Shown: piece by piece, positions 15,388-56,243 of the stretch
Position numbering within the stretch: the stretch's first letter is position 1
How the letters are laid out: every line of letters begins with the position of its first letter
NCBI RefSeq assembly: GCF_021631985.1
Contig: NZ_CP070225.1
Coordinates: forward strand, 6,200,001 to 6,264,000
Source: Sandaracinus amylolyticus
GTDB taxonomy: Bacteria; Myxococcota_A; Polyangia; Polyangiales; Sandaracinaceae
Length of the DNA: 64,000 nt
Reading direction: 5' to 3'
Notes under the pieces: generated by a model
The model's database searches: none
Told to the model about the DNA's origin: nothing
The model's input: the letters and a program-made list of their open reading frames with translations, nothing else
Position numbers and translations under genes: made by a program

Positions 15388-16709
15388 GCGCGACGCGCGA
15401 GGCGTGGCGGCGCGACGCGAAGGAGCTCGCGCGCCCCGCGCTGACCTACCTCGCGTGGGTCGTCGTGATGCTCGCGATCTTCGACCTCGTGGTGCTCGTG
15501 CTCGACGGGTTCTCGGGCGAGGCGATGGTGATGCTCGTCGTCCTCGGCGTCTCGACGATCATCGGCGTGCTGATCGGTCAGGCGCTCGCGATCGCGCGGG
15601 TGCGCGGCTCCGCGCTCGGCTGCGCGACGATGCTCTGGTACGCGGGCAGCTGCGTCGTGAGCGGCGCGCTCGTCGCGGGCGGTCCGCTCGGCGGGATCGT
15701 GATCGCGCTGCTCTTCATGACGCCGATCTTCGTGAGCGGCGGCGCGTGGAGCCTCGCATCGAGCCGCGCGCTCTTCGCGGCGTGGGTGCCGGTCATCTAC
15801 GGCACCGGCGCGATGTTCGCGATCCTCGAGCGCGACGATCGCGTCGACGTCTGGGAGCAGGGCGACAAGTGGGCGATCTGGAACGTCACCACGTCGTTCA
15901 TCCTGTTCCTCACCATCGCGCTGCTGCTCGTGTACCTCGTGATGCGCGAGCGGCATCGGCTGCATCGATGGAGGAACGCGCCGCGCGCGCTGCTCGCGGG
16001 CACGGTGATCGAGCGCGGTCCCGCGCGCCCTCGGCTCACGGTGATGGGCTGGGCCGCGCTGATCGTCGTCGGGCTGATGCTCACCGCGGGCACGCTCTTC
16101 CTCGCGCCCTATCTCTTCCGCACCGGGCCCGAGGAGGGCGAGGGCGAGGGGAGCTCGCAGTCGCAGCAGCAGGAGAGCGAGCAAGAGGGCGAAGGCGAGC
16201 AGCAGGCCGCGCAGGGCGAGGGAGAAGGAGACGCCGCGGGACAGGCCGAGCGCGCCGCGCGCGCCCTCGCGCAGGCGGTGTGCCCCGCGATGATCGGGCT
16301 CCTCCTGATCGCGGCGATGGCGGCGATCGCGTGGAGGCCGGTGCGGCGCCTCGTGATCATCGAGGTGCTGCGGCGCCCGCGCTGGCGCGTCGCGCCGACG
16401 ACCCGCATCCGCATGGGCTGGCGCTTGATCGAGATCGCGCTCGGCGATCTCGGGATCGACGCCGATCCGAGCGTCGACGCGAGCGAGCTCGTGCGCCGCC
16501 ACGAAGCTGCGCTCGGCGCGATCGACGCCGAGCTCCTCGCGCGGCTGCGCGACGCGGCGACGCTGCGCGATCGGGTCGCGTACGCGCTCGCGCTCGAGCC
16601 CGGCGACGTCGAGCGCTTCGCGAGCGACGCCGAGCGCATCTGGGTGATCGCGTCGAACCGCATCGAGCTGAAGAAGGAAGCGCAGAACGCCTTCCGCGAC
16701 GTCGGCTGA
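15384..16709 (+). CDS. Polytopic membrane protein, DUF58 partner
   Basis: The protein has 441 residues with a GTG start overlapping the DUF58 stop. About seven membrane helices fill the first 240 residues. A Glu/Gln/Gly low-complexity loop follows (EEGEGEGSSQSQQQESEQEG, about 250-285), then another helix (MIGLLLIAAMAAIAW) and a cytoplasmic helical C-terminus. The tail loosely resembles DUF4129, which is common at the end of MoxR-DUF58-transglutaminase loci, but the match is weak and the transglutaminase core is absent. The acidic loop between membrane parts is unusual for the neighbours. Function is probably as a membrane component of the MoxR/DUF58 system. Confidence 0.75.
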   Translation: MSATREAWRRDAKELARPALTYLAWVVVMLAIFDLVVLVLDGFSGEAMVMLVVLGVSTIIGVLIGQALAIARVRGSALGCATMLWYAGSCVVSGALVAGGPLGGIVIALLFMTPIFVSGGAWSLASSRALFAAWVPVIYGTGAMFAILERDDRVDVWEQGDKWAIWNVTTSFILFLTIALLLVYLVMRERHRLHRWRNAPRALLAGTVIERGPARPRLTVMGWAALIVVGLMLTAGTLFLAPYLFRTGPEEGEGEGSSQSQQQESEQEGEGEQQAAQGEGEGDAAGQAERAARALAQAVCPAMIGLLLIAAMAAIAWRPVRRLVIIEVLRRPRWRVAPTTRIRMGWRLIEIALGDLGIDADPSVDASELVRRHEAALGAIDAELLARLRDAATLRDRVAYALALEPGDVERFASDAERIWVIASNRIELKKEAQNAFRDVG

Positions 16710-16766
16710 TCGCGGGGACCGTGAATCCCAGGCACGCCGGCACAGCCGGCACACGGTCACGCCTCT

Positions 16767-16795
16767 GGCGAATTCGCCGCGAATTCCGCAATTCG
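16767..16795. promoter_or_regulatory. AATT-rich repeat patch with 12-bp palindrome
   Basis: The palindrome GGCGAATTCGCC (16767-16778) is followed by two more AATT(C) blocks at about 16782 and 16790, close to one helical turn apart. Such AT-rich phased blocks stand out in this GC-rich DNA. They lie 55-85 bases before the start of the lipoprotein at 16851. A promoter or operator is possible but unproven. Confidence 0.3.
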
Positions 16796-16850
16796 ACGCG
16801 TGGCACGGAGCTCGCTCTGGAGCGCTCGCGACTTCGACAGGAGCTTGCCC

Positions 16851-17624
16851 GTGTCTTCTTCTTCTCGTGCGCTTCTCTTCTCTTCGTTCGCCGCGCTCGC
16901 GCTGGTCGGGTGCAGCTTCGATCTCGCGCTCGACGGCGACTGGTCGCGCGGCGAGCTCGGCCGCTCGCAATGGCAGATCGACGACGGCCTCTGTCCCGGC
17001 CTCGCCGGCGGATGCGCGTTCGACGTGCCGCTCGCGGTCGGCGCCAGCACGCGCGTGCACGTCGTCGGCGTCGACGGAGACACCGTGTTCGCAGAGGCCG
17101 AGGGCAGCGTTCGTCTCGGGCTCTACGACGTGATCGCGAACGACCCCGCCGATGCCTTCTTCGAGATCACGGCGGTGAGCGCGGGCGCCGGGACGCTGCG
17201 GCTGCGCGATCGCCTCACCGGCGAGGAGATCGATCGCATCCACGTCGAGGTGCGTGAGGCGACCGAGCTCGACTGCGGCGCGCTCGCGAACAACGACGAG
17301 GTGCTGTGGGACATGCCGCAGCTCGCGCCCAGCGATCCGATCGAGCTGCTGATGCCGGGCGTCGTCGCGTCGAGCGGGAGCAGCCCCGATGCCCAGCTCG
17401 TGTGCCGGGCGCGCGACGAGCGCGGACCCATGCTCTCGGCCGACGCGATCCGGTGGCAGGTGATCGAAGGAGCCGACGTGATCCAGCTCCGCACCGACGC
17501 GCTCTTCTCGTTCTCGCCGGTGCAGGGCGCGCGCGTCCGCTACGACGTGCTGCAGCGCGGTGACGCACGCCTCCGCGTGACGCTCGGCGACATCTCGCGC
17601 GAGCTCGGCGTGGTCGTGCGATGA
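16851..17624 (+). CDS. Lipoprotein with Ig-like strands
   Basis: The protein has 257 residues. The frame also opens at a GTG at 16800, but the GTG at 16851 has a good Shine-Dalgarno AGGAG seven bases upstream. It also gives a compact signal (a hydrophobic stretch ending LALVGC), so it is chosen. The mature protein has alternating short strands (TRVHVVGVDGDTVFAEAEG, GTLRLRDRLTGEEIDRIHV) typical of Ig-like repeats. Four further Cys residues may pair as disulfides. No family was recognised. It is separated from the DUF58 operon by 141 bases that include an AATT-rich patch, so it probably has its own promoter. Confidence 0.72.
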   Translation: MSSSSRALLFSSFAALALVGCSFDLALDGDWSRGELGRSQWQIDDGLCPGLAGGCAFDVPLAVGASTRVHVVGVDGDTVFAEAEGSVRLGLYDVIANDPADAFFEITAVSAGAGTLRLRDRLTGEEIDRIHVEVREATELDCGALANNDEVLWDMPQLAPSDPIELLMPGVVASSGSSPDAQLVCRARDERGPMLSADAIRWQVIEGADVIQLRTDALFSFSPVQGARVRYDVLQRGDARLRVTLGDISRELGVVVR

Positions 17625-17630
17625 GCCTTT

Positions 17631-17730
17631 GCCGGAGTGCTCGTCCCGAAGGTCCCGGACGGGAGCGCGCCGCGCGCGCGGACGGTAGGGACCGGCGGGC
17701 GAGCCGATGTTTTCGGCAATCTTCGAGCGA
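17631..17730. repeat. Dispersed repeat family B, single reversed copy
   Basis: Read on the minus strand, this stretch matches the 84-base unit repeated at 56244-56493: CGGCTCGCCCGCCGGTCCCT, then TACCGTCCGCGCG, a GC hairpin, CTCCCGTCCGGG and GACGAGCACTCCGGCA. The match also covers about 25 bases of flank before the unit (GATCG-CGAAGA-TG-CGAAAA). The GC hairpin loop differs and a few bases are changed. It sits between a lipoprotein gene and the stop of the Spx/ArsC-like gene. Confidence 0.85.
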
Positions 17731-18093
17731 TCAGCGCTTCGGGAAGAGCGCCTCGTACTGCTCTTCCTTGAACCCGACGAGCACCTTGCCGCCGTGGACG
17801 AGCACCGGGCGCTTCACGAGCTTGCCGTCCTCCGAGAGCCAGCGCGTGATCGTCGCGTCGTCCGTGGCGTCGATCTTCTCCTTGCCCAGCGCGCGATAGC
17901 TCTGACCGCTGGTGTTGAGCCACTTGCGCACCGAGAGCCCGCTCGCGGGGATCCACTTCGCGAGCTCGGCGGGCGTCGGAGGCTGATCGACGATCGGGCG
18001 CAGCGTGATCGCGACGCTGCGATCCGAGAGCCACTTGAGCGCCTTCTTGCAAGTGCCGCAGCCGGCGTACGAGAGCACGAGCGGAGTCGTCAT
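17731..18093 (-). CDS. ArsC/Spx-family thioredoxin-fold protein
   Basis: The protein has 120 residues, the usual size for the ArsC/Spx/YffB group. The N-terminus SYAGCGTCKKALKWL has a CxxC pair (Cys12, Cys15) on the first helix of a thioredoxin fold. Other family landmarks are the middle LSVRKWLNTSGQSYRALG and the late VKRPVLVHGGKVLVGF with its cis-Pro. CxxC members of this group resemble Spx/MgsR regulators, while arsenate reductases of this fold usually carry CxxS; function therefore cannot be fixed. There is no arsenic operon nearby. Its stop lies at the edge of a dispersed repeat, and it diverges from the SpoU gene at 18160. Confidence 0.85.
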   Translation of the reverse strand: MTTPLVLSYAGCGTCKKALKWLSDRSVAITLRPIVDQPPTPAELAKWIPASGLSVRKWLNTSGQSYRALGKEKIDATDDATITRWLSEDGKLVKRPVLVHGGKVLVGFKEEQYEALFPKR

Positions 18094-18159
18094 CGCGCCG
18101 ACTCTAGCTGCACGCCGGCACGCGACAACGCGCGCGATCCGCGGTACCACGGCGCGCCG

Positions 18160-18972
18160 ATGAAGCCGCGCCGTCCTCGCTCGCCCGATCGCCCGCGACC
18201 GCCCGAACGACAGGGCCCGCCTCGTCCCATCGCGGGCGCCGGCGACGAGGTCACGTTCGGGCTGCGGGCGGGCATCGCGCTGATCGCGAAGCGCCCCGGC
18301 GACGTGCTGCGGATCGCGTTCGCGCCCGCCGTGCAGGGCGAGCTCGGCGAGGTCCTCCGCGGGTCTCCGGCACAGCGCGTCGCATCGAGCGCGAGCGACG
18401 CCGAGCTCGCGCGGCTCTCGGGCTCGACGCATCACGAGGGGCTCGTCGTCGTCGCGCGCCCGCGTCGCTGGGTGCCCGCGGCCGAGCTGAGCGAGCGCCT
18501 GGTGCGCGGCAAGGGCGCTGCGGTCGCGCTCGATCGCGTGCGCAATCCCTACAACGTCGGCGCGATCCTGCGCACCGCCGCGTTCTTCGGGATCGACGCC
18601 GCGCTGCTCGGCGCGATCGCGCCGCATCCCGCGCTCGCGTCGGATGCGATCCGCGTGGCCGAGGGCGGCACCGAGCACCTCGCGCTCTCGCGCACCACCG
18701 ATCTCGCCGCGACGCTCGAGCGACTGCGCGGCGCGGGCGTGCAGGTCGTCGGCGCCGACGGCGCAGCGCAGACGGGCGCGCTCGGCTTCGCGTTCCGGCG
18801 CCCCGCGATCCTCGTGATGGGCCACGAGCGCGAGGGCCTCTCGCCGCGCGTGCGCGCGCAGTGCGACGCGATCGTCGCGATCCCCGGCAGCGGCGCGATC
18901 GAGTCGCTCAACGTCGCGGTCGCGGCGGGCCTGCTGCTCGGCGAGCTGGTACGCGATCGGCTGGTGGGCTGA
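18160..18972 (+). CDS. SpoU/TrmH-family RNA 2'-O-ribose methyltransferase
   Basis: The protein has 270 residues. After a basic Pro/Arg-rich tail (1-26) comes a substrate-binding domain, then the SPOUT knot. Motif 1 is LDRVRNPYNVGAILRTA, motif 2 is ILVMGHEREGLS and motif 3 is IPGSGAIESLNVAVAAG. These residues bind S-adenosylmethionine in a trefoil knot. The family methylates rRNA or tRNA; the exact site cannot be told from sequence. The basic tail is a likely RNA-binding addition. It diverges from the ArsC/Spx-like gene with a 66-base spacer. An ATG at 18160 is chosen because nothing upstream in frame looks coding. Confidence 0.9.
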   Translation: MKPRRPRSPDRPRPPERQGPPRPIAGAGDEVTFGLRAGIALIAKRPGDVLRIAFAPAVQGELGEVLRGSPAQRVASSASDAELARLSGSTHHEGLVVVARPRRWVPAAELSERLVRGKGAAVALDRVRNPYNVGAILRTAAFFGIDAALLGAIAPHPALASDAIRVAEGGTEHLALSRTTDLAATLERLRGAGVQVVGADGAAQTGALGFAFRRPAILVMGHEREGLSPRVRAQCDAIVAIPGSGAIESLNVAVAAGLLLGELVRDRLVG

Positions 18973-18977
18973 GAGAG

Positions 18978-19060
18978 CCGTCGCCGTCGCCGACCACGTC
19001 CACGACCACGACGGCGTCGTCGACGTTGACGTGAACGGCGACGTGAACGGCGACGGCACT
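18978..19060. repeat. GTCGCC / GACGTGAACGGC simple repeats with self-complementarity
   Basis: Just after the SpoU stop there is GCCGTCGCCGTCGCCG, and then GACGTGAACGGC occurs twice in tandem followed by GACGGC. The two blocks are partly complementary, so a transcript could fold into a long imperfect hairpin. No coding pattern was found in the plus direction. A terminator-like end for the SpoU gene or a replication-slippage tract are both possible. Confidence 0.5.
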
Positions 19061-19131
19061 TTCCGTCGCGTGCACAGTCCGCTCTCCGGGATCTGGTCCC
19101 CTCGCATCCCCTCCGCGAGAATCCCGCGCCC

Positions 19132-20898
19132 ATGATCTGGCCGACCGAGCTCGAGGGCTTCCTCGTGCCAGGCACCGCGCGGTTGTTCACGCTGGTGCCG
19201 GTCCGCGGCGAGCGCTTCGTCACGCTGCGCCACCAACAACAGCGCGCGTGCAACCTCGCGGAGTGGCTGAGCGAGACGAGCGCGCCCGAGCGCGTGTGCG
19301 TGGTGGGCGCGGGCCTCGCGGGCCTCACGTTCGCGGCCGTCTACCACGAGCTGCGCGGAGGCCGGTGCTCGATCGTCGTGACCGAGCGACAGGCCGAGGT
19401 GCTCGCGAGCCTGCGCGGATGCCGCACGCGCTGGCTGCACCCGCACTTCTTCACGTGGCCCGATCCCTCGTGGGAGCGCCCGCACACGCTCTTCCCCGCG
19501 ATGAACTGGCGCGCCGGCGCGGCGCACGACGTCTACTGCGCGCTCATGCGCGAGTGGAAGCGCTTCGCGCGGACGATCCGCACCGAGGTGCGCACCGACC
19601 TCGTCGGGATCGAAGAGCGCGCGAAGCTCGTGCTGGTGGAGACGACGTGCCCGGGGCGCGAGCCCGAGGAGCGCGACTTCGACGCGCTGGTGATCGCGAC
19701 CGGGCCCGGCCTCGAGCGCCGGATGAGCGGCGCGATGAACGAGTCGTACTGGCACGACGACACGCTCGATCGCGAAGACCCGTACCGCCGCGGCGACGTG
19801 CGGCACTTCGCGGTCGCGGGCAACGGCGACGGTGCGCTCACCGATCTGCTGCGCATCCGCCTTCGCAACCTCGTCGATCACTCGGCGCTCGCGACCCTGG
19901 TGCGGCGGCTCGAGGAGCGATGGCCGGTGACCGAGCCCGACGATCTCGCGACCTGCGTGCGGCGCGCGCAGCGGAGCGGCGACGGAGTGAAGGAGCTCGA
20001 TCGCATCGCCGCGACGCTCCCCGCGCTGCGCGATCTGCTCGACGACGGCAGCGGGCTGCGCGAGGGCACGCGCGCGACGCTGCTCGGCGCGACCGACGCG
20101 CCCCACGGCAATCCGTCGGCGTTCGCGATCAACCGGCTGCTCGTGGCGATGCTCGCCGCGAAGGACGTGACGGGCTTCGCGTACCAGCGCGGCCAGGTGA
20201 TCGGCGCCGCGAAGTGGGTGCACCGCGATCGCGTGCGCGACGGAGATGCCGAGCGCGATCGCATCGTGGTGCTGCGCGACCGTACGCTCTACGCCGACGC
20301 GTTCGTCGCGCGCATCGGCGCGGATCGCGCGGGCCTGCTCCCCGACGACGCCGCGTCGAACGACACCGTCGACGCACTGCGCGCCCACGAAGCGGCACGA
20401 GAGCGGCCCACGAACGAGGCGCGCATCGCGAGTGAGCGCCGCGCCGAGCCGCGGGTCCTTCTGCGCGCGATGCCGGCGCTCGCGGGCAACAAGGTGCGCA
20501 TCCGCTTCCATGCACCGAGCGCATTGTCGATCGAAGGCGCGCTCGTGACGTACGTGGAGGGCGCGGTGTCGGTCGACGGTGTCGGCGCAGCGCCGCTGCC
20601 CATCGTGCTGCGCTTCGACGAAGGTCCCGTGGTCGCGATCGTCCCCGTGGTTGCGAGGCCCGAGAATCCCGCGTCGCACGCGATGATGCGGGTGCTCTGC
20701 GCGTCGGCCGAGCTGATCGTCGCGGGCTCGGTGCTCGACGATCGCGACGAGACCCTCGCCGCGTGGGCGGCTCTCGGTGAGCGCTTCCAGCTGGTGCTCT
20801 TCAGCGAGAGCGCCGAGGAGCTCCGCGCCGAGCACCCGATCGTCGTCGAGCGCGAGCCCGGCGCATGGCCGTTCGAGCTCGACACCAGCGACGCTTGA
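19132..20898 (+). CDS. FAD/NAD(P)-binding Rossmann protein with unassigned C-terminal domain
   Basis: The protein has 588 residues. About 53 residues precede a dinucleotide-binding beta-alpha-beta with VCVVGAGLAGLTFAA at about 54-68. A second nucleotide region appears as VLVIATGPGLERRMSG-like (ALVIATGPGLE) and HFAVAGNGDGALTDLL. Halfway there is a long segment with few known landmarks. The last 150 residues (VRIRFHAPSALSIEGA to the end) form a separate domain that was not recognised. It reads as a flavin-dependent oxidoreductase or an FAD/NAD-binding sensor. It is the first gene of a same-strand set leading to YcaO and TfuA, with 44 bases to the winged-helix gene. Whether it serves that pathway is unknown. 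Confidence 0.7.
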   Translation: MIWPTELEGFLVPGTARLFTLVPVRGERFVTLRHQQQRACNLAEWLSETSAPERVCVVGAGLAGLTFAAVYHELRGGRCSIVVTERQAEVLASLRGCRTRWLHPHFFTWPDPSWERPHTLFPAMNWRAGAAHDVYCALMREWKRFARTIRTEVRTDLVGIEERAKLVLVETTCPGREPEERDFDALVIATGPGLERRMSGAMNESYWHDDTLDREDPYRRGDVRHFAVAGNGDGALTDLLRIRLRNLVDHSALATLVRRLEERWPVTEPDDLATCVRRAQRSGDGVKELDRIAATLPALRDLLDDGSGLREGTRATLLGATDAPHGNPSAFAINRLLVAMLAAKDVTGFAYQRGQVIGAAKWVHRDRVRDGDAERDRIVVLRDRTLYADAFVARIGADRAGLLPDDAASNDTVDALRAHEAARERPTNEARIASERRAEPRVLLRAMPALAGNKVRIRFHAPSALSIEGALVTYVEGAVSVDGVGAAPLPIVLRFDEGPVVAIVPVVARPENPASHAMMRVLCASAELIVAGSVLDDRDETLAAWAALGERFQLVLFSESAEELRAEHPIVVEREPGAWPFELDTSDA

Positions 20899-20934
20899 TC
20901 GGACACTTGACGAACACTTGACCGACGCTCAAGG
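20891..20934 (+). promoter_or_regulatory. CTTGA-type iterons before the winged-helix gene
   Basis: Three direct CTTGA blocks lie in ACGCTTGATC, ACACTTGAC and ACACTTGAC, with the TTGA cores at 20895, 20907 and 20918 (12 and 11 bases apart). An inverted copy, CTCAAG, is at about 20929. The winged-helix gene starts at 20943. Phased direct repeats next to the gene for a DNA-binding protein suggest an autoregulatory operator; TTGAC could also serve as a -35 box. Both are inference. Confidence 0.45.
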
Positions 20935-20942
20935 ATCTGGAC

Positions 20943-22373
20943 ATGAGGTCGGAGCTGAAGAGCAACGAGCGGCGCGCGCTCACCGCGCTCGTCGCCGCCG
21001 ACGCGCCCCTCTCGAAGGGCGACCTCGCGAAGGCGGTGTTCGGCGAGGTCACCGGCTCGACGCAGTCGATGATCTCGCGGATCACCGCGACGTTGCTCGA
21101 GCACGGCCTGATCCGCGAGACCCAGCTCGGCCGTGTGCGCGTGGTCGCGCCGACCGCCGCGGGCCGTGCCGAGATCCAGGTCACGCCGCGGCCCGATGGG
21201 ACGCTGCTGCGCGCGCGGCTGCGCGACCTCGCGGGCACCAACGAGCACCCGCCCCGTGCCCGCAACATCAAGCATCTCCACGGTGCGGCGGCGATCGTCG
21301 CGAGCGAGCTCTCGCGCCGCGCGGAGTGGCGCGACGAGGACGAGCGGTTCGCGCAGGCGATGCTCGCGCTGATCGACGAGGGGCCGGACGAGCGCCGCGA
21401 CGCGCGCGAGGATCGCGCGGCGATCGGCCAGCTGCTCTGGGGCTGGCCCACGCGCGACGCGGCGCGCGGCGCGCTCGTCGACGCGCTCGCTCGCCTCGAA
21501 GATCCGCTGGAGCGCGAGGACCGCGCGCGCGAGCTCGGCTCGGAGCTGGTGCGGCTCGCCGGCAGCGTCGCGGCACATCCCGACCTCGCGCTGCTGTGGT
21601 CGGCCGCGGCGGGCGCGATCCTCGGCGCGCTGCGGACGCGCACCGACGCCACCGACGCGCGGGTGCGCGCCGCGCTCGCGAACGGGCTGCGGAGCTCGCT
21701 CCGCGTGGCGGAGCACACGAGCGAGGAGATGTCGCGCTACTGGCGCGCGCGCAGCTTGACGGCGCTCGGCGCCGACGACGCAGCGGGCGCGGACTGGGAC
21801 GCGCTCGCGCGGATCGTGGTGCCTCCGCGCGACGCGGATCGCTCGGGCGTCGAGGAGCGCGCGCGGCGAGTCGTCCTGGCGGTGCGCGACAGCGCGGTCG
21901 TGAACGCCCCGCTCACCGAGCTCGACGCGCTCGAGCGACGGCTGCTGGCGACGCGCCTCGCGGCGAAGATGAAGTGGCCCGACACGAGCCCCTCGTCGCA
22001 CGTGATCGAAGAGATCGTGGATCGCCGCGATCGCACGGTGAGCGCGCTCGCCGACGTGGAGCGCAAGCTCGGCGACGGAGAGCGCGCGGAGCTGGATCGC
22101 GCCCGCGATCAGGTGCGCGCGGTGCCGGCGAAGCTCGAGAGCGATCCCGCCGCGCGCGAGATCGCGAGCCTGCACGCGCGCCGCGCGAGCATCACGGCCG
22201 CGGGCAGCGCCGCGATCGCCGCGGCGAAGCAGGTCGCGCCGGTCGCCGACGGTGACCTGAAGCGCTTCCTCGCGGACCAGGTCCGGGACAACCTCTGGTC
22301 GTTGCCGATGGTCGTGGGCCACGTCGCGTGGCTCGCGCGCTTCGACAAGATCGTTCGCAACGAGCTCAGCTGA
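20943..22373 (+). CDS. Winged-helix protein with long helical C-terminal region
   Basis: The protein has 476 residues. The first 75 form a MarR-like winged helix (ERRALTALVAADAPLSKGDL, then TQSMISRITATLLEHGLI and the wing GRVRVVAPT). The remaining 400 residues are almost entirely Ala/Arg/Glu-rich helices with few Cys or aromatic residues, probably a helical-repeat or dimerising domain; its family was not recognised. There is no signal peptide. It is preceded by phased CTTGA repeats and followed after only 11 bases by the 49-codon mini-gene, so it is the likely regulator or a component of the YcaO/TfuA locus. Confidence 0.75.
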   Translation: MRSELKSNERRALTALVAADAPLSKGDLAKAVFGEVTGSTQSMISRITATLLEHGLIRETQLGRVRVVAPTAAGRAEIQVTPRPDGTLLRARLRDLAGTNEHPPRARNIKHLHGAAAIVASELSRRAEWRDEDERFAQAMLALIDEGPDERRDAREDRAAIGQLLWGWPTRDAARGALVDALARLEDPLEREDRARELGSELVRLAGSVAAHPDLALLWSAAAGAILGALRTRTDATDARVRAALANGLRSSLRVAEHTSEEMSRYWRARSLTALGADDAAGADWDALARIVVPPRDADRSGVEERARRVVLAVRDSAVVNAPLTELDALERRLLATRLAAKMKWPDTSPSSHVIEEIVDRRDRTVSALADVERKLGDGERAELDRARDQVRAVPAKLESDPAAREIASLHARRASITAAGSAAIAAAKQVAPVADGDLKRFLADQVRDNLWSLPMVVGHVAWLARFDKIVRNELS

Positions 22374-22380
22374 GGAGGAG
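22372..22380 (+). promoter_or_regulatory. Strong Shine-Dalgarno for the 49-codon gene
   Basis: GAGGAGGAG follows directly on the TGA of the winged-helix gene and sits four bases before the ATG at 22385. It is the strongest ribosome binding site seen in this locus and is the main evidence that the tiny gene is translated. Confidence 0.75.
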
Positions 22381-22384
22381 AACG

Positions 22385-22534
22385 ATGAGCGCGCTCGAGA
22401 CGAGCCTGCCGAAGCCGGTGACCCAACCGCGCGGCGCGTACGCCCAGGTCGCGGTGGTGCGCGATGGACGCGCGATCCGCGCGGGCGAGAGCGACGCCGA
22501 TGCGCCCCGGCGCGCCGAGCACGAGCGACGCTGA
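22385..22534 (+). CDS. 49-residue peptide, candidate YcaO/TfuA substrate or RidA-like remnant
   Basis: The sequence runs MSALETSLPKPVTQPRGAYA, then QVAVVRDGRAIRAGES, then a charged tail DADAPRRAEHERR. It has no Cys, three Gly (17, 28, 34) and two Thr. It sits directly behind a very strong Shine-Dalgarno and in front of ycaO, which is where ribosomal-peptide precursors often sit. Against a simple precursor reading, the stretch PRGAYAQVAVVRDGRAIRAG resembles, from memory, the N-terminal strand-turn-strand of RidA/YjgF proteins (GPYSQAV, then GR-I--AG). A truncated RidA gene is therefore the alternative. The last 12 codons overlap the YcaO start in another frame. It is probably translated; its role is open. 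Confidence 0.55.
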   Translation: MSALETSLPKPVTQPRGAYAQVAVVRDGRAIRAGESDADAPRRAEHERR

Positions 22535-23618
22535 TCGCTGGCGCGACGTGCTCGCGTCGCACCGCCGCGCGTTCGGCGTGACGCGCTTCGGCTCGACGAC
22601 CGCGCTCGACGTGCTCGGCATCGAGACCGCGACCGCGCTGCGCGACGACGTCGAGGGCGAGTCGATCTCGGTGGCCAGCGGCAAGGGCCGGACTCGCACC
22701 GAGGCCGAAGCGGGCGCGCTCGCCGAGGCGCTCGAGCGACACGCCGCGGAGCCATGCCGGGCACGCATCGCGACGCACATCGCGCGCGCCGCGGAGCTCG
22801 GCGACGCAGCGCTCGATCTCGCATCGCTCGCGCTCGGGACGTGGGTCGATCGCGACGTGCTGGACGCGCCGCTCGAGTGGTGTCGTGGCGCGTGGCTCGC
22901 GACCGGCGAGCCGGTCTGGGTGCCCGCCGACCTGGTGTTCTTTCCGTTCGTGCCCGCGCCCGATCGCGTGCTGCTCGCAGCACCGAGCACCACCGGTCTC
23001 GCGAGCGGCGAGACGTGGGACCGCGCGGTGCTCCACGGCTTGCTCGAGTGCGTCGAGCGCGACGCGTGGGCGCGGGCCCTCGCGCTGGTGTCGATCGGAC
23101 GTGGCGGTCGCATTCCTCACCTCGATGCCGCCGCGACACCGCTCCTCGAGCGAGTCGCGCGCGCGGGCCTCTCGCTCGTGCTCCACGACCTCACGCACGA
23201 TCTCGGGATCCCCAGCGTGCTCGCGGTGATCGACGATGGATCGCTCGCGCACGTCGGTGCCGCGAGCCACCTGCGCGCCGAGGTCGCGCTCGAGCGCGCG
23301 GTGCTCGAGGCCGCGCAGAGCCGCGTGACCGATCTCCAGGGCGCGCGCGAAGATCTCGCGCCGCGCGGCGAGAGACCGCATCGCTGGTTCGTCGAGCACG
23401 ATCGATCACGCGGCGCGACGTGGCCCGCGAGCGTCGACGACGACGACCTCGACGCGCGGCTGCGCGCGGCCGGCCTGCCCGGTGCGATCACGATCGACCT
23501 CTCGCCGCCCGACGTCCCCGCGTTCGTCGCGCGCGTCGTCGCGCCGGGGCTCGAGTCGTGGGCGCTCGATCCCACACGCGCGGGAGCGAGGCTGCGGTCG
23601 TGGCTGCGCGCGGTCTAG
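22500..23618 (+). CDS. ycaO: YcaO-domain cyclodehydratase/thioamidase-type enzyme
   Basis: The protein has 372 residues. YcaO landmarks are SVASGKGRTRTEAEAGALAE leading into ALERHAAE (ATP/Mg site) near residue 60-85, GLLECVERDAW near 180-190, and the closing region with SRVTDLQGAREDL. YcaO enzymes use ATP to activate backbone amides for azoline, amidine or thioamide formation. The Pro-rich C-terminal tail typical of azoline-forming members is absent (it ends LRSWLRAV), and a TfuA gene overlaps it, which together favour thioamide chemistry. The ATG at 22500 lies inside the preceding mini-gene; a later start would cut into the domain. It overlaps tfuA by 19 bases. Confidence 0.88.
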   Translation: MRPGAPSTSDADRWRDVLASHRRAFGVTRFGSTTALDVLGIETATALRDDVEGESISVASGKGRTRTEAEAGALAEALERHAAEPCRARIATHIARAAELGDAALDLASLALGTWVDRDVLDAPLEWCRGAWLATGEPVWVPADLVFFPFVPAPDRVLLAAPSTTGLASGETWDRAVLHGLLECVERDAWARALALVSIGRGGRIPHLDAAATPLLERVARAGLSLVLHDLTHDLGIPSVLAVIDDGSLAHVGAASHLRAEVALERAVLEAAQSRVTDLQGAREDLAPRGERPHRWFVEHDRSRGATWPASVDDDDLDARLRAAGLPGAITIDLSPPDVPAFVARVVAPGLESWALDPTRAGARLRSWLRAV

Positions 23619-24235
23619 TCTTCATCGGGCCCTCGCTGCCCGATCCGCCGGCGCGGAGCGAGATCGCCTACGCGCCGCCGGCGCGTCGCGGCGACGTGCT
23701 CGAGGCAGCGCGCCGCGGCGTAGACGTGATCGGCTTGATCGACGGAGTGCTCGTCGGAGAGCTCGCGGTCTCGCCCGGTGAGGTGCGCGATGCCGCGCGC
23801 ACCGGCGCGCGACTGATCGGCGGCGCGAGCCTCGGCGCGCTGCGCGCGGTCGAGCGCCCGAACGACGTCGAGGGCGTGGGCGAGGTGTTCGAAGCGTTCC
23901 GCGACGGCGTGCTCACCGACGACGACGAGGTCACCGCGACGTTCGACGCCGAGATGCGCTACGTCGCGCTCCCGCTCGTCACGATCCGCGATCGCCTCTC
24001 GCAGATGATCGCCGCGCGCGCGATCGATCCACGTCACGGCGACGCGATCATCGCGGCGCTCCGCGCCCTGCCCTTCGACCAGCGGACCGAGCGCGCGCTC
24101 CTGCACGCGGCGAGAGCGCAGCTCGGCGACGAGGTGGCGAGCGCGCTCGTCGCGCGGATGCGCACGCTCGAAGACGTGAAGCGCCGCGACGCACGGCGCG
24201 TGATCGACGCCGTCGCGCGCGCGCTCACCACGTGA
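23600..24235 (+). CDS. tfuA: TfuA-domain protein, YcaO partner
   Basis: The protein has 211 residues from a GTG start inside the end of the YcaO gene. The family opens with VFIGPSLP (near residue 6-13), continues with DVIGLIDGVLVGE, and has the signature LIGGASLGALRAVE (conserved GAS-GALRA block). The rest is helical. TfuA proteins partner with YcaO in thioamide installation, in thioviridamide-type peptides and in thioglycine of methyl-coenzyme M reductase, and are thought to deliver sulfur or assist the YcaO step. The frame overlap with YcaO argues for tight co-translation. It runs 11 bases into the end of the convergent RCC1 gene at 24225. Confidence 0.88.
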   Translation: MAARGLVFIGPSLPDPPARSEIAYAPPARRGDVLEAARRGVDVIGLIDGVLVGELAVSPGEVRDAARTGARLIGGASLGALRAVERPNDVEGVGEVFEAFRDGVLTDDDEVTATFDAEMRYVALPLVTIRDRLSQMIAARAIDPRHGDAIIAALRALPFDQRTERALLHAARAQLGDEVASALVARMRTLEDVKRRDARRVIDAVARALTT

Positions 24236-26369
24236 CCGGACGCGGCGCCCCGGCATCCCAGCAGCACACGCCGCCGGTCTGCTGCGCCGCACAGACCTCG
24301 TGATATCCGGGCGCGATCGCGATCACCTGATCGAGCCACTCGATGCGTCGCGGCACCCCCGGCGGCGGCTCGGACGCCGCACGACGCGACGACGACGCGC
24401 CACGACGCGACGACGCGCGACCCCAGCACCACGCGCTGCCGTCGTCGCCCGAGATGCAGATCTCCGCCTCGTACGCTGCGATCGTGCGCGCCGGAGGGAT
24501 GCCCTCGATGCGCACCGCGCGCGCCGACTCCACGCTCTGCGCCGCGCCGAGCTGCCCCTCGGCGCCGCTGCCCCAGCACGACACGCTTCCGTCGTTCAGC
24601 AGCGCACACGCCGCGCCCTGCGCGACCGCGAGCGAGCGCACCGCGCTCCCGTCGACCCCCTCGATCGCGTGCGGCGGCGCCGAGGCGGTCGCGCCGCCCC
24701 AGCACGCGACGTTCCCGCGATCGACCGCGCACGTCGCGTCGGGCCCCGCCGCGATCGCGCTCGCCGCGCCGAGCCCGCGCACCCGCACCGGCGTCGTGCG
24801 CAGCTCGCTCGTTCCGTCGCCGAGCTGCCCGTGATCGTTCGCGCCCCAGCACCACACCTGAGCGCCCTGGGTCCGCGCGCACGCGTGCATGCGCCCGGTC
24901 GCGATCGCCTCGACACGACCGCGCAGCGCGACCTGCATCGGCGTGCTCGAGTTGCGGCGATCGCCTCGCCCGAGCTGCCCGTGACCGCCCTGCCCCCAGC
25001 ACCACAGCGATGCGTCGTCGGTGATCGCGCACGAGAAGTGGAGCCCGGTCGCGATCGTCGTCGCGGGGCGCGGCACGCCGGGCGCGCGCGAGCTCACGGG
25101 ATCGCCCGCCATCGGACCGCCGGTCTGTCCCGACTGGTTGAGCCCCCAGCACCGCACCGCGCCGTCCCCGAGCCGCACGCAGAAGTGCCCGTAGCCCGCG
25201 CTCAGCGCCTCGACCGGGACGCGATCGGGACCGTACCCGCAGACCGGCCCGGCCGCGCTCACGCTCGGCGGCGCCTCGACGCGCGGTCCCCACGCGAGCG
25301 GCGCCCACGATCCGTCGCGCTCCTTGCAGTGCCATCCGCCCTCGGTCGTGCCCGCGCAGATCGCGCCGCTGCGCTCGGTGCTCACGAGCGCGCGCACGTT
25401 CGTCACCGGCTGCACCCGTGCCTCGCGCGTGCCCGCCTCGAAGCACCACAGCGCGCCCTCGCGCGTGAACGCGCAGAGCGTCGCGCCCGCGCTCTCGATC
25501 GCGACCGCGTCCTCGATGCCGCGCACGTCGACCGCGTCGTAGCGATGGCTGCCGCTGCGACGACGATCCTCGGGGCCGCGGATCATCCCGCGCACGTGCC
25601 CGTCGCGCGTGACCCACCACAGGTTCTCGCGCGTGAGCGCGACGTCGATCGCATCGCGGATCGCGCGGTGCTCGTACAAGCCGTCGTCGCGCCGCTCGCC
25701 CATGTGGTGGAAGCGCTCCCAGCCCCAGCACAGGATCTCGTGCGCGCGGGTCAGCGCGCAGCGCGAGAGATCGTACGCGTCGAGCGCGATCACCCCCGCG
25801 AGGCGCGGGATCGTCTCGATCGACGAGAGCGGCAGCGACGTGTGGCCGTTCCACGCGGTGCCCCAGCAGCGCACCGTCCCGTCCTCCACGATCGCGCAGC
25901 CACCGCTCACGCCGAACGCCATCGCGCTCGGCGGCGGGATCGCGAGCACGTCGGGGCGCGACCACCGCGAGCCGCCGACGCCGATCGCGCCCCAGCACGA
26001 CACGCGACCGCCCTCGCCGACGCCGCAGAACGCGCCCTGTCCGCCGTACAGATGCGTGACCGGATCGAGCCCCTCGATGCGCGAGGGCACGCGGTCGCGA
26101 GCGTCGGCGTCCCAGCACCACACGCTTCCGTCGTCGAGCAGCGCGCAGCGCTCTCCGTTCTCGCCGAGCGCGACCTCGCGCGCCCGACCGATGTCGGGCA
26201 GCTCGTGGATCGCACCCTCGGGCGCCCGCGCGACCCGCACACCGCCACGCGTCTCGGGCGCGGTCGCGCGCACCGTGATGTGCGTCTCGTCGCGCACCAC
26301 GCGCTCCTGCGCCGAGCACGCGATCAACGAGAGCAGGACGGCGAGTGAGACGATTGGATGTCGACGCAT
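24225..26369 (-). CDS. RCC1-repeat lipoprotein
   Basis: The protein has 714 residues. The start complementary to 26367-26369 gives MRRHPIVSLAVLLSLIAC, a clean lipoprotein signal, so the longer in-frame start at 26474, inside the repeat element, is rejected. The mature chain has about a dozen repeats of roughly 40-55 residues ending in the RCC1 signature V(W/R/S)CWG (for example GSVWCWD, GRVSCWGAIG, ASLWCWGQGGHGQLG, AQVWCWGANDHGQLG). Such RCC1 propeller lipoproteins are numerous in myxobacteria and are exported; their partners are unknown. It converges with tfuA and overlaps its last 11 bases. Confidence 0.92.
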   Translation of the reverse strand: MRRHPIVSLAVLLSLIACSAQERVVRDETHITVRATAPETRGGVRVARAPEGAIHELPDIGRAREVALGENGERCALLDDGSVWCWDADARDRVPSRIEGLDPVTHLYGGQGAFCGVGEGGRVSCWGAIGVGGSRWSRPDVLAIPPPSAMAFGVSGGCAIVEDGTVRCWGTAWNGHTSLPLSSIETIPRLAGVIALDAYDLSRCALTRAHEILCWGWERFHHMGERRDDGLYEHRAIRDAIDVALTRENLWWVTRDGHVRGMIRGPEDRRRSGSHRYDAVDVRGIEDAVAIESAGATLCAFTREGALWCFEAGTREARVQPVTNVRALVSTERSGAICAGTTEGGWHCKERDGSWAPLAWGPRVEAPPSVSAAGPVCGYGPDRVPVEALSAGYGHFCVRLGDGAVRCWGLNQSGQTGGPMAGDPVSSRAPGVPRPATTIATGLHFSCAITDDASLWCWGQGGHGQLGRGDRRNSSTPMQVALRGRVEAIATGRMHACARTQGAQVWCWGANDHGQLGDGTSELRTTPVRVRGLGAASAIAAGPDATCAVDRGNVACWGGATASAPPHAIEGVDGSAVRSLAVAQGAACALLNDGSVSCWGSGAEGQLGAAQSVESARAVRIEGIPPARTIAAYEAEICISGDDGSAWCWGRASSRRGASSSRRAASEPPPGVPRRIEWLDQVIAIAPGYHEVCAAQQTGGVCCWDAGAPRPVTW

Positions 26370-26427
26370 GGCGCGCGGAGCCTCGCACATTCTCCGCACA
26401 CGGCGCGCAGCGCGTTCCTCGTCGGGA

Positions 26428-26564
26428 TTTCCGAGCCACCAAGGAGAGCAGGAGGGTTGGGAACACCACGGCACCGAGCTCGTCGTGCGACTCGACTCGG
26501 TGCTCGGTGAGTCACACGCGGGCTCGTCGACGTGGTGTTCCTATCCCTCCTGCTCTCCTCGGAA
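26428..26564. repeat. Long inverted repeat, family A copy 1
   Basis: The left arm (TTTCCGAG, a 6-base insertion, AGGAGAGCAGGAGGG, then AACACCAC) pairs with the right arm GTGGTGTT-CCTCCTGCTCTCCTCGG at 26531-26562. Inside is a second hairpin (GCACCGAG at 26471, CTCGGTGC at 26496). The whole forms a cruciform-like element of about 137 bases in the divergent gap between the RCC1 gene and the monooxygenase. Two related elements are at 28731 and 43008. Confidence 0.85.
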
Positions 26565-26581
26565 ATTGTCCTGGACATCTA

Positions 26582-26596
26582 TTGAACTATGTTCAA
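26582..26596. promoter_or_regulatory. 15-base perfect palindrome TTGAAC-TAT-GTTCAA
   Basis: The operator-like palindrome lies 36 bases before the GTG of the monooxygenase and is much more AT-rich than its surroundings. Its size and symmetry fit a TetR- or MarR-type dimer site, and it overlaps where a promoter would be. No such regulator gene is adjacent. Confidence 0.5.
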
Positions 26597-26632
26597 CAGT
26601 CTTGTTGGCAGCTCTGACGACAGGAGGAATGC

Positions 26633-28105
26633 GTGGACCAGCAGCGTCACGAGGAGCTCGAGGTCGCGATCGTCGGCAGCGGGTTCAGCGGCATCGCGAT
26701 GGGCGTGCAGCTCCAGCGCGCAGGCATCGAGCGCTTCCGCATCTTCGAGAAGGCGCACGACGTCGGCGGCACGTGGCGCGAGAACACGTATCCCGGCGCC
26801 GCGTGCGACATCCCCTCGCACCTCTACTCGTTCTCGTTCGCGCCGAACGCGCGCTGGACGCGCTCGTACTCGCGACAGCCCGAGATCCTCGAGTACCTGC
26901 GCGACACCGCGCGCGCGCACGGGCTCTATCGACACATCACGTTCGGCGCGGAGATCGACGACGCGCGCTGGGACGCGACGACCGGCACCTGGACCATTCG
27001 CGCGAAGAACGGCGAGACGGTGCGCGCGCGCTCGCTCGTGCTCGGCTGCGGCGGCCTGCACATCCCGCAGTACCCGTCGATCGAGGGGCGCGACTCGTTC
27101 GCGGGCCCGAGCTGGCACTCCGCGACGTGGAGGCACGACGTCGATCTGCGCGGCAAGCGCGTCGCGGTGATCGGCACCGGCGCGAGCGCGATCCAGCTCG
27201 TCCCGCAGATCGCGAAGGACGTCTCGAAGCTGCACGTCTTCCAGCGCACGCCGCCGTGGATCGTGCCCAAGGCGGATCGCGCGATCCCGCCGCGCATCCG
27301 CGCGCTCTTCGCGCGCTCGCCCGCGCTGATGCGCGCGCATCGCGCGCTGCTCTACTGGCAGCACGAGGCGCGCGCGGTCGGCTTCGTGATGGAGCCGCGC
27401 ATCATGGAGCTCGCGGCGCTGCTCGCGAAGCGATACCTCGAGCACTGCGTGGCCGATCCGGTGCTGCGCACGAAGCTCACGCCGAAGTACGTGATGGGCT
27501 GCAAGCGCGTGCTGCCCTCGAACGACTACTACCCCGCGCTCTGTCGCCCCAACGTCGAGCTCGTCACCGAGGGCATCGCGGCGATCGAGCCGAAGGGCGT
27601 GCGCGCCGGCGACGGCACGCTGCGCGAGGTCGACGCGATCGTGTACGGCACCGGCTTCGCGGTCGCGGAGTACCTGTCGCCGATCACGATCGTCGGCAGC
27701 GAGGGGCAGCGCCTGAACGACGTGTGGCGCGACACCGCGCCCGAGGCGTACCTCGGGATCACGGTGTCGGGCTTCCCGAACCTCTACCTGCTGATGGGCC
27801 CGAACACCGGGCTCGGACACAACTCGATGGTCTTCATGATCGAGGCGCAGGCGCGTTATGCGCGGCAGTGCATCGAGACGCTGCGCGACAAGCGGCTCCG
27901 CGCGCTCGACGTGCGCCCGGGCGTGCAGGCTGCGTTCAACCGCGCGCTCGAGGAGAAGCTTCGCCAGACCGTGTGGTCATCGGGATGTCAGAGCTGGTAT
28001 CTCGCGGCGGGCGACGGAAAGAACGCGCTCACGTGGCCGGGCTTCACGTTCGACTACTGGCGCCGCACCCGCCGCATCGATCTCAGAGACTTCACCGCGA
28101 GCTGA
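26633..28105 (+). CDS. Flavin-containing Baeyer-Villiger-type monooxygenase
   Basis: The protein has 490 residues with a GTG start, AGGAGG seven bases upstream. It has two Rossmann folds: the FAD site AIVGSGFSGIAMG at about 13-25 and the NADPH site VAVIGTGASAIQL at about 177-189. Between them lies the fingerprint FAGPSWHSATW, which matches the class B monooxygenase pattern FxGxxxHxxxW. A late ATG-like motif (IVYGTGF) closes the FAD domain. The reaction is oxygen insertion next to ketones or oxidation of soft heteroatoms, using NADPH and O2; the substrate cannot be told. It stands alone behind a palindrome and a long inverted repeat, so it is probably separately regulated. Confidence 0.9.
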   Translation: MDQQRHEELEVAIVGSGFSGIAMGVQLQRAGIERFRIFEKAHDVGGTWRENTYPGAACDIPSHLYSFSFAPNARWTRSYSRQPEILEYLRDTARAHGLYRHITFGAEIDDARWDATTGTWTIRAKNGETVRARSLVLGCGGLHIPQYPSIEGRDSFAGPSWHSATWRHDVDLRGKRVAVIGTGASAIQLVPQIAKDVSKLHVFQRTPPWIVPKADRAIPPRIRALFARSPALMRAHRALLYWQHEARAVGFVMEPRIMELAALLAKRYLEHCVADPVLRTKLTPKYVMGCKRVLPSNDYYPALCRPNVELVTEGIAAIEPKGVRAGDGTLREVDAIVYGTGFAVAEYLSPITIVGSEGQRLNDVWRDTAPEAYLGITVSGFPNLYLLMGPNTGLGHNSMVFMIEAQARYARQCIETLRDKRLRALDVRPGVQAAFNRALEEKLRQTVWSSGCQSWYLAAGDGKNALTWPGFTFDYWRRTRRIDLRDFTAS

Positions 28106-28145
28106 TCCCCTCGACCTAACGGCGAGCACGCCCCATAGCTCCCGC

Positions 28146-28694
28146 GTGGATCGCGCCACGCTGGACACCCTCGTCGCCTCGCACCGTCAGTTCCTCGCGT
28201 TCGTCGAGCGCCGCGTCAGCTCGCGCGCGGTCGCCGAGGAGATCCTCCAGGACGCGTTCGTCCGCGGCATCGAGCGCGGCGGCGCGCTGCGCGAGGACGA
28301 GTCGGCGACCGCGTGGTTCTATCGCGTCCTGCGCAACGCGATCATCGATCATCACCGCCGCCGGGGCACCGAGGCGCGCGCGCTCGAGGCCCTGGCGCGC
28401 GAGCTCGACGAAGAGGCGCCCGAGGCCGAGGCGCTGCGCGCGACGGTGTGCGGCTGCATCACCGAGATCGCGACCACGCTCAAGCCGGAGTACGCGGAGA
28501 TCCTGCGCGAGGTCGAGGTCGAGGGGCGCAGCGTGAAGGACTACGCGGGCGCGCAGGGCATCACGCCGAACAACGCGGCAGTGCGGGCGCACCGCGCGCG
28601 CGAGGCGCTCCGCGCCCAGGTCGCGCGCGCCTGCGGCACCTGCGCGACCCACGGATGCTTCGACTGCACGTGCAGCAAGGAAGCGCACGGCTGA
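28146..28694 (+). CDS. ECF sigma factor with C-terminal Cys-rich tail (CorE-like)
   Basis: The protein has 182 residues, GTG start. Region 2 is visible as AEEILQDAFVRGIERGG and TAWFYRVLRNAIIDHHRRRG; region 4 as EYAEILREVEVEGRSVKDYA and the recognition helix ending VRAHRAREAL. After region 4 there is a short tail with five Cys (163, 166, 171, 174, 176) arranged CGTC...CFDCTC plus a His at 169. Cys-rich C-terminal tails after region 4 are known in metal-responsive CorE-type sigma factors of Myxococcus, which need no anti-sigma. No anti-sigma gene follows here, which fits. The metal and regulon are unknown. Confidence 0.82.
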   Translation: MDRATLDTLVASHRQFLAFVERRVSSRAVAEEILQDAFVRGIERGGALREDESATAWFYRVLRNAIIDHHRRRGTEARALEALARELDEEAPEAEALRATVCGCITEIATTLKPEYAEILREVEVEGRSVKDYAGAQGITPNNAAVRAHRAREALRAQVARACGTCATHGCFDCTCSKEAHG

Positions 28695-28700
28695 GACCCG

Positions 28701-28727
28701 CTGCGCGCGGATCACGCGCAGATTTTT
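28701..28727 (+). terminator. Intrinsic terminator after the sigma factor gene
   Basis: A 7-base perfect stem (CTGCGCG / CGCGCAG) with a 7-base loop is followed by ATTTTT. This is a rare T run in this genome and starts six bases after the stop codon. Confidence 0.7.
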
Positions 28728-28730
28728 GCC

Positions 28731-28881
28731 GCTGAGGAGAGCAGGAGTTTCAGGAGGGAGCACGAAACACGATCGCATCGTGTTTCGCGATTCAGCGCCT
28801 GGGACGACGATTCAGGGAGCATCTCGTCGAAACACGATGTGCTCGAATCTCCCACTCTCCTGCTTTCCTGCTCTCCTCAGC
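28731..28881. repeat. Long inverted repeat, family A copy 2
   Basis: The outer arms begin GCTGAGGAGAGCAGGA and end TCCTGCTCTCCTCAGC (28866-28881). Inside is a perfect 11-base hairpin, CGAAACACGAT-cgc-ATCGTGTTTCG (28763-28787), and a further copy of CGAAACACGAT near 28825. An extra CTCCTCAGC follows at 28898, where it provides the stop region of the gene that ends at 28902. Shares its terminal motif with the elements at 26428 and 43008. Confidence 0.85.
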
Positions 28882-28901
28882 GGAATCTCTCCTATTCCTC
28901 C

Positions 28902-30227
28902 TCAGCGGCTCTCGCGGCGAGGGGCGTGCTTCTTCGCCTCTGCGACGAACGCTTCGAGCGTCGGCAGCGGAGGCAGCGCGCGCGTGCCCGGCGCGACGAT
29001 CGCGCGCGCCGGCAGGCGCGCGGGCGGGATGCTCGTGCCGCGCTTCGGCTGCGCAAGCGGCGGCAGCGCGTCGAGCGCCGCACGCGCTTGCTCGTGCGAC
29101 GCGTCGAAGCTCAGCACCTGCTCGAGCACGCGGCGCGCGCCGTCGGCGAACCCGTTGCGCGCGTAGAGCTCGGCCAGCGTGAGGTACGTCGGCACCTCGG
29201 TCGCCTCGAGCGGCGGCGCCTTCGCGAACTGGGTGAGCACGCGGTCGAGCTCGAAGTCGAAGCGGCCGAGCTTGCTCGCGACGTCGACGAGCTTCGTGCA
29301 CGCGACGCGATGGCGCTTGTGCTCCGGCGACACGCGCAGCAGCGCGTCCATCGCCTCGGGATAGCGACCGAGGTCGTAGAGCACGGCGCCCGACTCGTAG
29401 TCGAGGCCCGACTCCGCGAACCACTGCGCCGCGTCCTCGAGCCGCCCCGAGTCCCACGCCACGCGCGCCGCGGCGTTCTTCTTCCCCTGCTCGAGCAGCT
29501 GGCGGATCATCTCGTCGGTCGCGCCCGAGCCCTGCGCGCCGCCGCGCCATCCCGATGCGCGTCCCCACTTGTCCGCCGAGCCCGGCGCGCGTGATGCCGA
29601 CGGCGTGATGCTCGCCGCGCGCGGCTGCGACGCGGGCGCGGGCGTGCTCGGGCGCGGCGCGGTGCCCGCCGACGAAGGCGCGACGGAGCGCGACGCGGCC
29701 GGGATGCCGACCATCGACGGCGAAGGCGACGCGACCGGCGGCGCGCTCTCCGGCACCTTCATGCCCGGCGACGACGGCGAGGGCGACGACACGGTCGGCT
29801 TCCGCGACGCGACGGGCGGAGCCGATCCCGGAGGCGGCGCGATGCTCGGCACCGGCTCGGTCTGCGGCAGCACGTCGGGCGCGATCGAAGGACGCGCGGC
29901 CTGGGCCGCGCCCTCGGGCGCACCGAGCGCGCGCCGCACTCGCGCCGCGGTCTCCGCGTCACCGCCGAGCTCGAAGCAGCGCGCGGCCTTCTCGGCGGCC
30001 GCGCGCGAGCGTCCCTCGAGACGCCCCGCGTCGTCCGCGGTCACGCCGAGCGTCTCGAGCATCAGCGTGCCCGCCTCGACGTAGCGCTCCGCGCCGACGA
30101 GCAGACGCACCGCCTCGCCGGGCGCGCCCGCGCGCTTGTACTGATCGATCGCCTTGTCGGCGAAGCCGCGCTGCTCGAGCTCGCGCGCGGTCTGCAGGCG
30201 AATTTCTCGGACGCGCTCGCCGCTCAC
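28902..30227 (-). CDS. Tetratricopeptide-type helical repeat protein, third gene of PilT operon
   Basis: The protein has 441 residues. The GTG start overlaps the PilT stop (GTGA). The N-terminal 110 residues are helix-turn-helix repeats (LQTARELEQRGFADKAIDQY, RYVEAGTLML, AAEKAARCFELGGD). A 150-residue Pro/Ser/Ala-rich, probably disordered linker follows (PSIAPPPGSAPPVASRKP-like). The C-terminal half is again TPR-like (AAQWFAESGLDYESGAVLYD, PTYLTLAELYARNGFADGA). No signal peptide is seen. It is a likely scaffold for the two PilT-type motors upstream. Its stop falls just beyond a family A inverted repeat. Confidence 0.78.
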   Translation of the reverse strand: MSGERVREIRLQTARELEQRGFADKAIDQYKRAGAPGEAVRLLVGAERYVEAGTLMLETLGVTADDAGRLEGRSRAAAEKAARCFELGGDAETAARVRRALGAPEGAAQAARPSIAPDVLPQTEPVPSIAPPPGSAPPVASRKPTVSSPSPSSPGMKVPESAPPVASPSPSMVGIPAASRSVAPSSAGTAPRPSTPAPASQPRAASITPSASRAPGSADKWGRASGWRGGAQGSGATDEMIRQLLEQGKKNAAARVAWDSGRLEDAAQWFAESGLDYESGAVLYDLGRYPEAMDALLRVSPEHKRHRVACTKLVDVASKLGRFDFELDRVLTQFAKAPPLEATEVPTYLTLAELYARNGFADGARRVLEQVLSFDASHEQARAALDALPPLAQPKRGTSIPPARLPARAIVAPGTRALPPLPTLEAFVAEAKKHAPRRESR

Positions 30228-56201: not shown

Positions 56202-56243
56202 TCGCCGCATCGCGCCACGGGTGCGGCGATCGAAGACTGTCGA

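Follow-up and report, generated by a model that had tools for sequence, protein, structure and literature searches.

YcaO and TfuA proteins are enzymes that exchange oxygen for sulfur in peptide backbones. Few TfuA-dependent thioamide peptides have been characterized, and in a survey from 2021 every one of them was actinobacterial. The same survey predicted hundreds of TfuA-YcaO cluster families, the large groups of which include myxobacterial families of Corallococcus (PMC8120280). In the thiovarsolin pathway of Streptomyces varsoviensis (varA-varY-varT(-varO)), a precursor, YcaO and TfuA suffice, there is no dedicated protease or exporter, and release of the product has been proposed to be brought about by ordinary peptidases (PMC6511847). 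Other points of reference are the YcaO-TfuA pair of methanogens that forms the thioglycine of McrA (PMC5589413; structures 6pe3/6peu and 6xp8), the thioamitides such as thioviridamide and thiostreptamide, and an operon of rhizobia.

The stretch of DNA analysed here, referred to as the window, comprises 64,000 nucleotides and is located at 6.20-6.26 Mb on the 10.75-Mb chromosome of Sandaracinus amylolyticus (assembly of 10.96 Mb, two contigs). The host is a soil myxobacterium. The window contains five genes in the order flavoprotein, winged-helix protein, 49-codon mini-gene, ycaO and tfuA (Table 1). They are bordered on the left by a TrmH-family gene that ends at window position 18972 and on the right by an RCC1-repeat gene that ends at 24225. 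In G008, a genome of the same genus, these flanks are collinear and ~90% identical, but an ~90-bp spacer with a hairpin is found between them where the window has 5.25 kb. All five genes are therefore missing from G008 as one block with intact flanks and are present or absent together, and we conclude that they are one co-inherited unit. An earlier reading of the DNA, based on the letters and their open reading frames (the sequence-only reading), had placed the locus at 22385-24235; this was right for the last three genes and missed the two upstream ones that are inherited with them, the first of which begins at 19132. Genes for a transporter, a protease, a transposase or an integrase were not found within the block. 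We give about an even chance to the interpretation that the unit is a minimal, thiovarsolin-like operon for a thioamidated (RiPP-type) peptide with the 49-mer as its predicted substrate. Seen more broadly, it appears to add a further member, unique in sequence, to a large and mostly uncharacterised class of thioamide-peptide operons.

Table 1. Features of the accessory block, with coordinates in the window.
Feature	Position	Strand	Size	Evidence	Remark
Accessory block	18973..24224	.		Flank comparison	Here but not in same-genus G008
FAD/NAD(P)-binding flavoprotein	19132..20898	+	588 aa	Pyr_redox_2, E 9.8e-11	First gene of the unit
Protein with probable N-terminal winged helix, then all-helical	20943..22373	+	476 aa	Weak HTH profiles, low-confidence model	
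Shine-Dalgarno AGGAGGAG of mini-gene	22373..22380	+		Sequence	Overlaps stop codon of preceding gene
Basic peptide (mini-gene)	22385..22534	+	49 aa	Codon statistics, composition	Proposed thioamidation substrate
ycaO	22500..23618	+	372 aa	PF02624, E 4.9e-61	ATP-dependent backbone amide activation (family-based role)
tfuA	23600..24235	+	211 aa	PF07812, E 3.1e-25	GTG start; putative sulfur-delivery partner

Similarly to the thiovarsolin cluster, the locus combines a small gene with YcaO and TfuA, has no dedicated protease, may include an oxidative enzyme and has APR, the tripeptide core of the thiovarsolins, once in the 49-mer. In contrast to the thiovarsolins, there is no repeated core and no homology to the precursor, and the oxidase, which is heme-oxygenase-like there, is a flavoprotein here. 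APR was rejected as a marker of a thiovarsolin core, as it occurs as a single copy that about 16% of shuffled 49-mers have by chance and no core is repeated. With the methanogen pair the window enzymes share the best-scoring subfamily and the side of the tree, and the YcaO is likewise compact without extra domains; however, they score below the equivalog cut-offs, the methanogen substrate is a large enzyme, and the handful of methanogen loci inspected gave no convincing small gene ahead of ycaO. Among four such loci, which were picked non-systematically and searched with a Shine-Dalgarno rule that suits bacteria better, three had no small gene ahead and the fourth had a chance-like frame of 29 codons. 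The rhizobial operon, which is conserved on plasmids (L011 3484-7883; L202 1481-5738), has the same order of an HTH/helical-repeat regulator, a peptide of ~48 residues, YcaO and TfuA, the peptide of Rhizobium being a 47-mer behind a BTAD regulator, but regulator and peptide are unrelated in sequence to those of the window and the YcaO is ~35% identical. As in the thioamitides, YcaO-TfuA is located beside a small gene; unlike in these, the block has no kinase/lyase, flavin decarboxylase or methyltransferase tailoring genes. This absence, already remarked upon in the sequence-only reading, was confirmed by scanning the neighbouring genes against Pfam and NCBIfam, and the block ends at tfuA.

The 49-codon frame is very probably a genuine protein gene. 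Open frames of this length are common in DNA of 72% G+C, and length alone is therefore uninformative; the conclusion is drawn from codon scores together with a rare, strong Shine-Dalgarno sequence. The latter, AGGAGGAG, is located 4 nt upstream of the ATG at 22385, and a site of such quality at suitable spacing precedes 7 of the 908 ATGs in the window. A log-odds model of codon use was trained on 17 genes of the window, and 2,974 stop-free off-frame segments served for comparison. Codons 1-26 of the mini-gene, the part outside ycaO, score +17.8 bits, which is close to the median for segments of real genes and is reached by 0.13% of the off-frame segments. The entire frame scores +20.2 bits, a value reached by 1.3% of the off-frame segments, and the other five frames are negative. 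Thus, the strong Shine-Dalgarno sequence and the coding small gene ahead of ycaO that had been proposed from the letters are both supported, as are the proposed overlaps along mini-gene, ycaO and tfuA. The translation of 22385-22534, MSALETSLPKPVTQPRGAYAQVAVVRDGRAIRAGESDADAPRRAEHERR, is a protein of 5.34 kDa with a pI of 9.9, without cysteine and without a GG motif or any other recognisable leader or cleavage site. A role of the mini-gene product as a ThiS-like carrier was considered and rejected, since it has neither a Pfam match nor a C-terminal GG.

YcaO and TfuA are clear members of their families by sequence comparison, in agreement with the earlier assignment of the pair: the genes are adjacent, and both products exceed the Pfam cut-offs. 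In an alignment of 49 YcaO-TfuA pairs, YcaO retains 39 of the 46 columns that are kept in at least 90% of the relatives, including all of the Glu, Arg and Gln residues of the ATP motifs. TfuA retains nearly all near-invariant residues (D47-G48, E60, S76-x-G-A-x-R, D107-D108-E109-V110, R161, K193 and D196). TfuA-associated YcaO proteins prefer Met in ATP motif 1 and His in motif 2 (PMC8120280); in the window YcaO the His is present (LHGLLECVERD) and the Met is replaced by Ala. The best matches among solved structures are MJ1094 for YcaO (PDB 6pe3, E 1.5e-28) and a TfuA-domain protein for TfuA (PDB 6xp8, E 1.3e-24). The C-terminus of YcaO, ...PGLESWALDPTRAGARLRSWLRAV, has no Pro-rich tail, just as the sequence-only reading had stated. 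Both enzymes should be active, and from their family membership we infer that the pair carries out backbone thioamidation.

Neither ycaO nor tfuA was found in the same-genus genomes G008 and G009, and 23 of 379 Myxococcota genomes encode TfuA. None of the Myxococcota YcaO proteins is more than ~36% identical to that of the window, and the nearest relatives found overall are ~35-38% identical, so that no close relative was identified in the sets searched. An alignment-based scan with YcaO returned, among the matches listed, mostly methanogen enzymes at 28-39% identity, and close relatives outside the Myxococcota could exist beyond these matches; a pattern scan of genome contigs with YcaO alone gave no match. 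In a combined YcaO and TfuA tree, the window falls outside the main clade of Myxococcota and joins the enzymes of methanogens together with a small number of deep lineages of bacteria (SH-aLRT 97.3, ultrafast bootstrap 82), on a long branch whose exact place is not fixed. It might be proposed that the pair thioamidates a folded cellular protein, comparable to methyl-coenzyme M reductase or ribosomal protein uL16, and that the 49-mer serves as an adaptor or regulator or has nothing to do with the pair. This would fit the methanogen-type side of the tree and the best NCBIfam models of both enzymes, which are those of the McrA-glycine thioamidation pair (TIGR03266 for YcaO and NF033432 for TfuA), and E. 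coli provides an established case of a YcaO that thioamidates a protein (PMC13063428). However, both enzymes stay far below the equivalog cut-offs (200.1 bits against 365 for YcaO, 139.6 against 235.2 for TfuA), a coding small gene is located directly ahead of the pair, and the same-genus genome lives without the pair, which makes a conserved housekeeping target unlikely. We regard a protein substrate as unlikely on balance.

The start of ycaO bears on the role of the mini-gene. Codon scores in the ycaO frame are -7.0 bits over 22464-22499, +1.1 bits over 22500-22547 and +24.7 bits afterwards; the negative score of the first segment indicates that translation probably starts at ATG 22500 rather than at ATG 22464, from which YcaO would have 384 residues. 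The overlap with the mini-gene accordingly amounts to 35 nt from ATG 22500 or 71 nt from ATG 22464, while the GTG of tfuA at 23600 lies inside ycaO and produces an overlap of 19 nt. All candidate starts of ycaO (22464, 22500 and 22548) lack a Shine-Dalgarno sequence and lie inside or just past the mini-gene, suggesting that its translation is coupled to that of the mini-gene. It might thus be argued that this coupling is the main task of the 49-codon frame, which would be a translated leader with a functionless product, and the orphan status of the 49-mer would be in line with this. We consider such a leader a rather improbable explanation, as the composition of a selected gene, which is displayed by the first 26 codons, is not needed by a coupling leader, and as a direct coupling of ycaO to the gene before the mini-gene would also have been possible.

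As a check, the sequence-only reading had named a conserved small frame ahead of ycaO in relatives, of which the position was recovered and the sequence was not. A search of 283 other Myxococcota genomes gave no homologue of the 49-mer above chance level, tblastn gave none in plasmids, and none of the small proteins of other ycaO-tfuA loci is significantly similar to it. As the 49-mer is an orphan in the sets searched, neither a conserved core or leader nor membership in a precursor family with a conserved core can be demonstrated. In the related genomes G007 and G006, which have ycaO and tfuA, the search immediately ahead of the pair yielded no coding small gene. Short genes directly 5' of ycaO-tfuA are nevertheless frequent in other bacteria and belong to unrelated sequence families: besides the rhizobial 47-mer, Asanoa has a gene for a 45-mer there, an Acidobacteriaceae bacterium has one that overlaps ycaO and encodes a 103-mer, and Myxococcota have genes for a 52-mer, a 64-mer, a Nif11-like 109-mer and a family whose members end in C[YT]x[LV]N[LP]. 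By these comparisons, the sequence of the 49-mer is private and the position of a small gene ahead of ycaO-tfuA recurs.

Several further observations were made on such loci. The motif C[YT]x[LV]N[LP] occurs near the C-terminus of otherwise different proteins of 96-454 residues that directly precede ycaO-tfuA in several Myxococcota (L016, L049, L050, L051, L052, L055, L057 and L060; weakly L058), and these proteins are candidates for a family of substrates sharing a conserved core. At L066 (6301-13526), a likely peptide cluster encodes two near-duplicate peptides of 70 residues ending in SS[AN]KEWQ[DE] and, as assigned by eye, a probable oxygenase of the DUF692/MNIO type and a subtilisin-like fusion protein in addition to YcaO and TfuA. 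YcaO and TfuA are joined in one frame of ~870-930 residues twice in tandem on one myxobacterial contig (L069 826-3615 and 4911-7676) and apparently also once on the megaplasmid of Streptantibioticus cattleyicolor (L196 7001-9607).

For the two upstream genes, guesses at a function can be offered. The 476-aa protein is a probable regulator or sensor, as suggested by weak HTH profile matches (E 0.04-0.06) and a single-sequence AlphaFold model of low confidence (mean pLDDT 42.5); no homologues were found in 56 other genomes, plasmids or the PDB. Residues 27-400 of the flavoprotein match the LmuA profile of PADLOC (E 1.5e-42). Relatives of ~30% identity occur on rhizobial plasmids, and relatives are labelled ABC-three-component proteins. 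A Lamassu system was rejected because no SMC partner is located beside the LmuA-like flavoprotein. That the five genes are a conflict module (anti-phage or competition), in which a winged-helix sensor together with a Lamassu-FMO-like flavoprotein controls a thioamidated small effector or antidote, would agree with this match, with the label of the relatives and with the sharp bounds of the accessory unit, but is improbable, given that the block has no LmuB (SMC/ABC) or other defence gene, that the match is limited to the flavin-binding part and that the plasmid relatives stand alone. Less probable still is the reading that winged-helix sensor, Lamassu-type flavoprotein and thioamidated 49-mer together represent backbone thioamidation in a conflict or signalling system and not in the making of a secreted natural product.

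Returning to the minimal thioamide-peptide operon, it might be hypothesized for this block, gained or lost as one unit, that the 49-mer is translated from its own strong Shine-Dalgarno sequence, translation continuing through the overlapping starts into YcaO and TfuA. Using ATP, YcaO would phosphorylate a backbone amide of the 49-mer, and TfuA, described as a hydrolase of a thiocarboxylated carrier (PMC13063428), would free sulfide from the thiocarboxylate of a ThiS/MoaD-like carrier whose gene lies outside the block. Three ThiS-family proteins are encoded elsewhere in the genome, and any of them could provide the sulfur. One or a few backbone amides of the 49-mer would thereby become thioamides, and general peptidases would release the product as proposed for the thiovarsolins, while the winged-helix protein may regulate the operon and the flavoprotein may oxidise the product or have a separate function. 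The 49-mer as a substrate is favoured by its coding signature and strong Shine-Dalgarno sequence, by the overlapping order of mini-gene, ycaO and tfuA, which puts a small precursor-like gene beside the pair, and by the small genes at other loci. The operon reading as a whole also draws on the family assignment and retained residues of both enzymes, on the joint absence of the five genes from G008, on the thiovarsolin precedent and on the three ThiS-family proteins. Arguing against it are its orphan status, the absence of cysteine and of a leader or cleavage site, a block without protease or transporter, the position on the tree side of the methanogen McrA enzymes with their large protein substrate, and the Ala of YcaO in place of the preferred Met. 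With its small size, sharp natural boundary and one obvious candidate substrate, the operon is a clean test case for what bacterial YcaO-TfuA pairs near the methanogen type really modify.

With regard to the history of the block, its sporadic occurrence favours a gain here over a loss in G008, a comparison of two genomes only; its G+C content is 73.7%, and neither G+C nor tetranucleotide use is unusual. An RNA element in the operon region was rejected, as an Rfam search of window positions 15000-30000 gave no match. Across the TrmH-family gene from the operon, G008 has ~2 kb extra (contig 1, ~1462383-1464434; L195) at the site that matches window 18091-18093, a second insertion or deletion beside the operon. 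Finally, a GC-rich, hairpin-forming repeat of ~88 bp is located at window 17622-17730, with three further copies at 56227-56492, and G008 has more than 60 copies of it, often in head-to-tail arrays.
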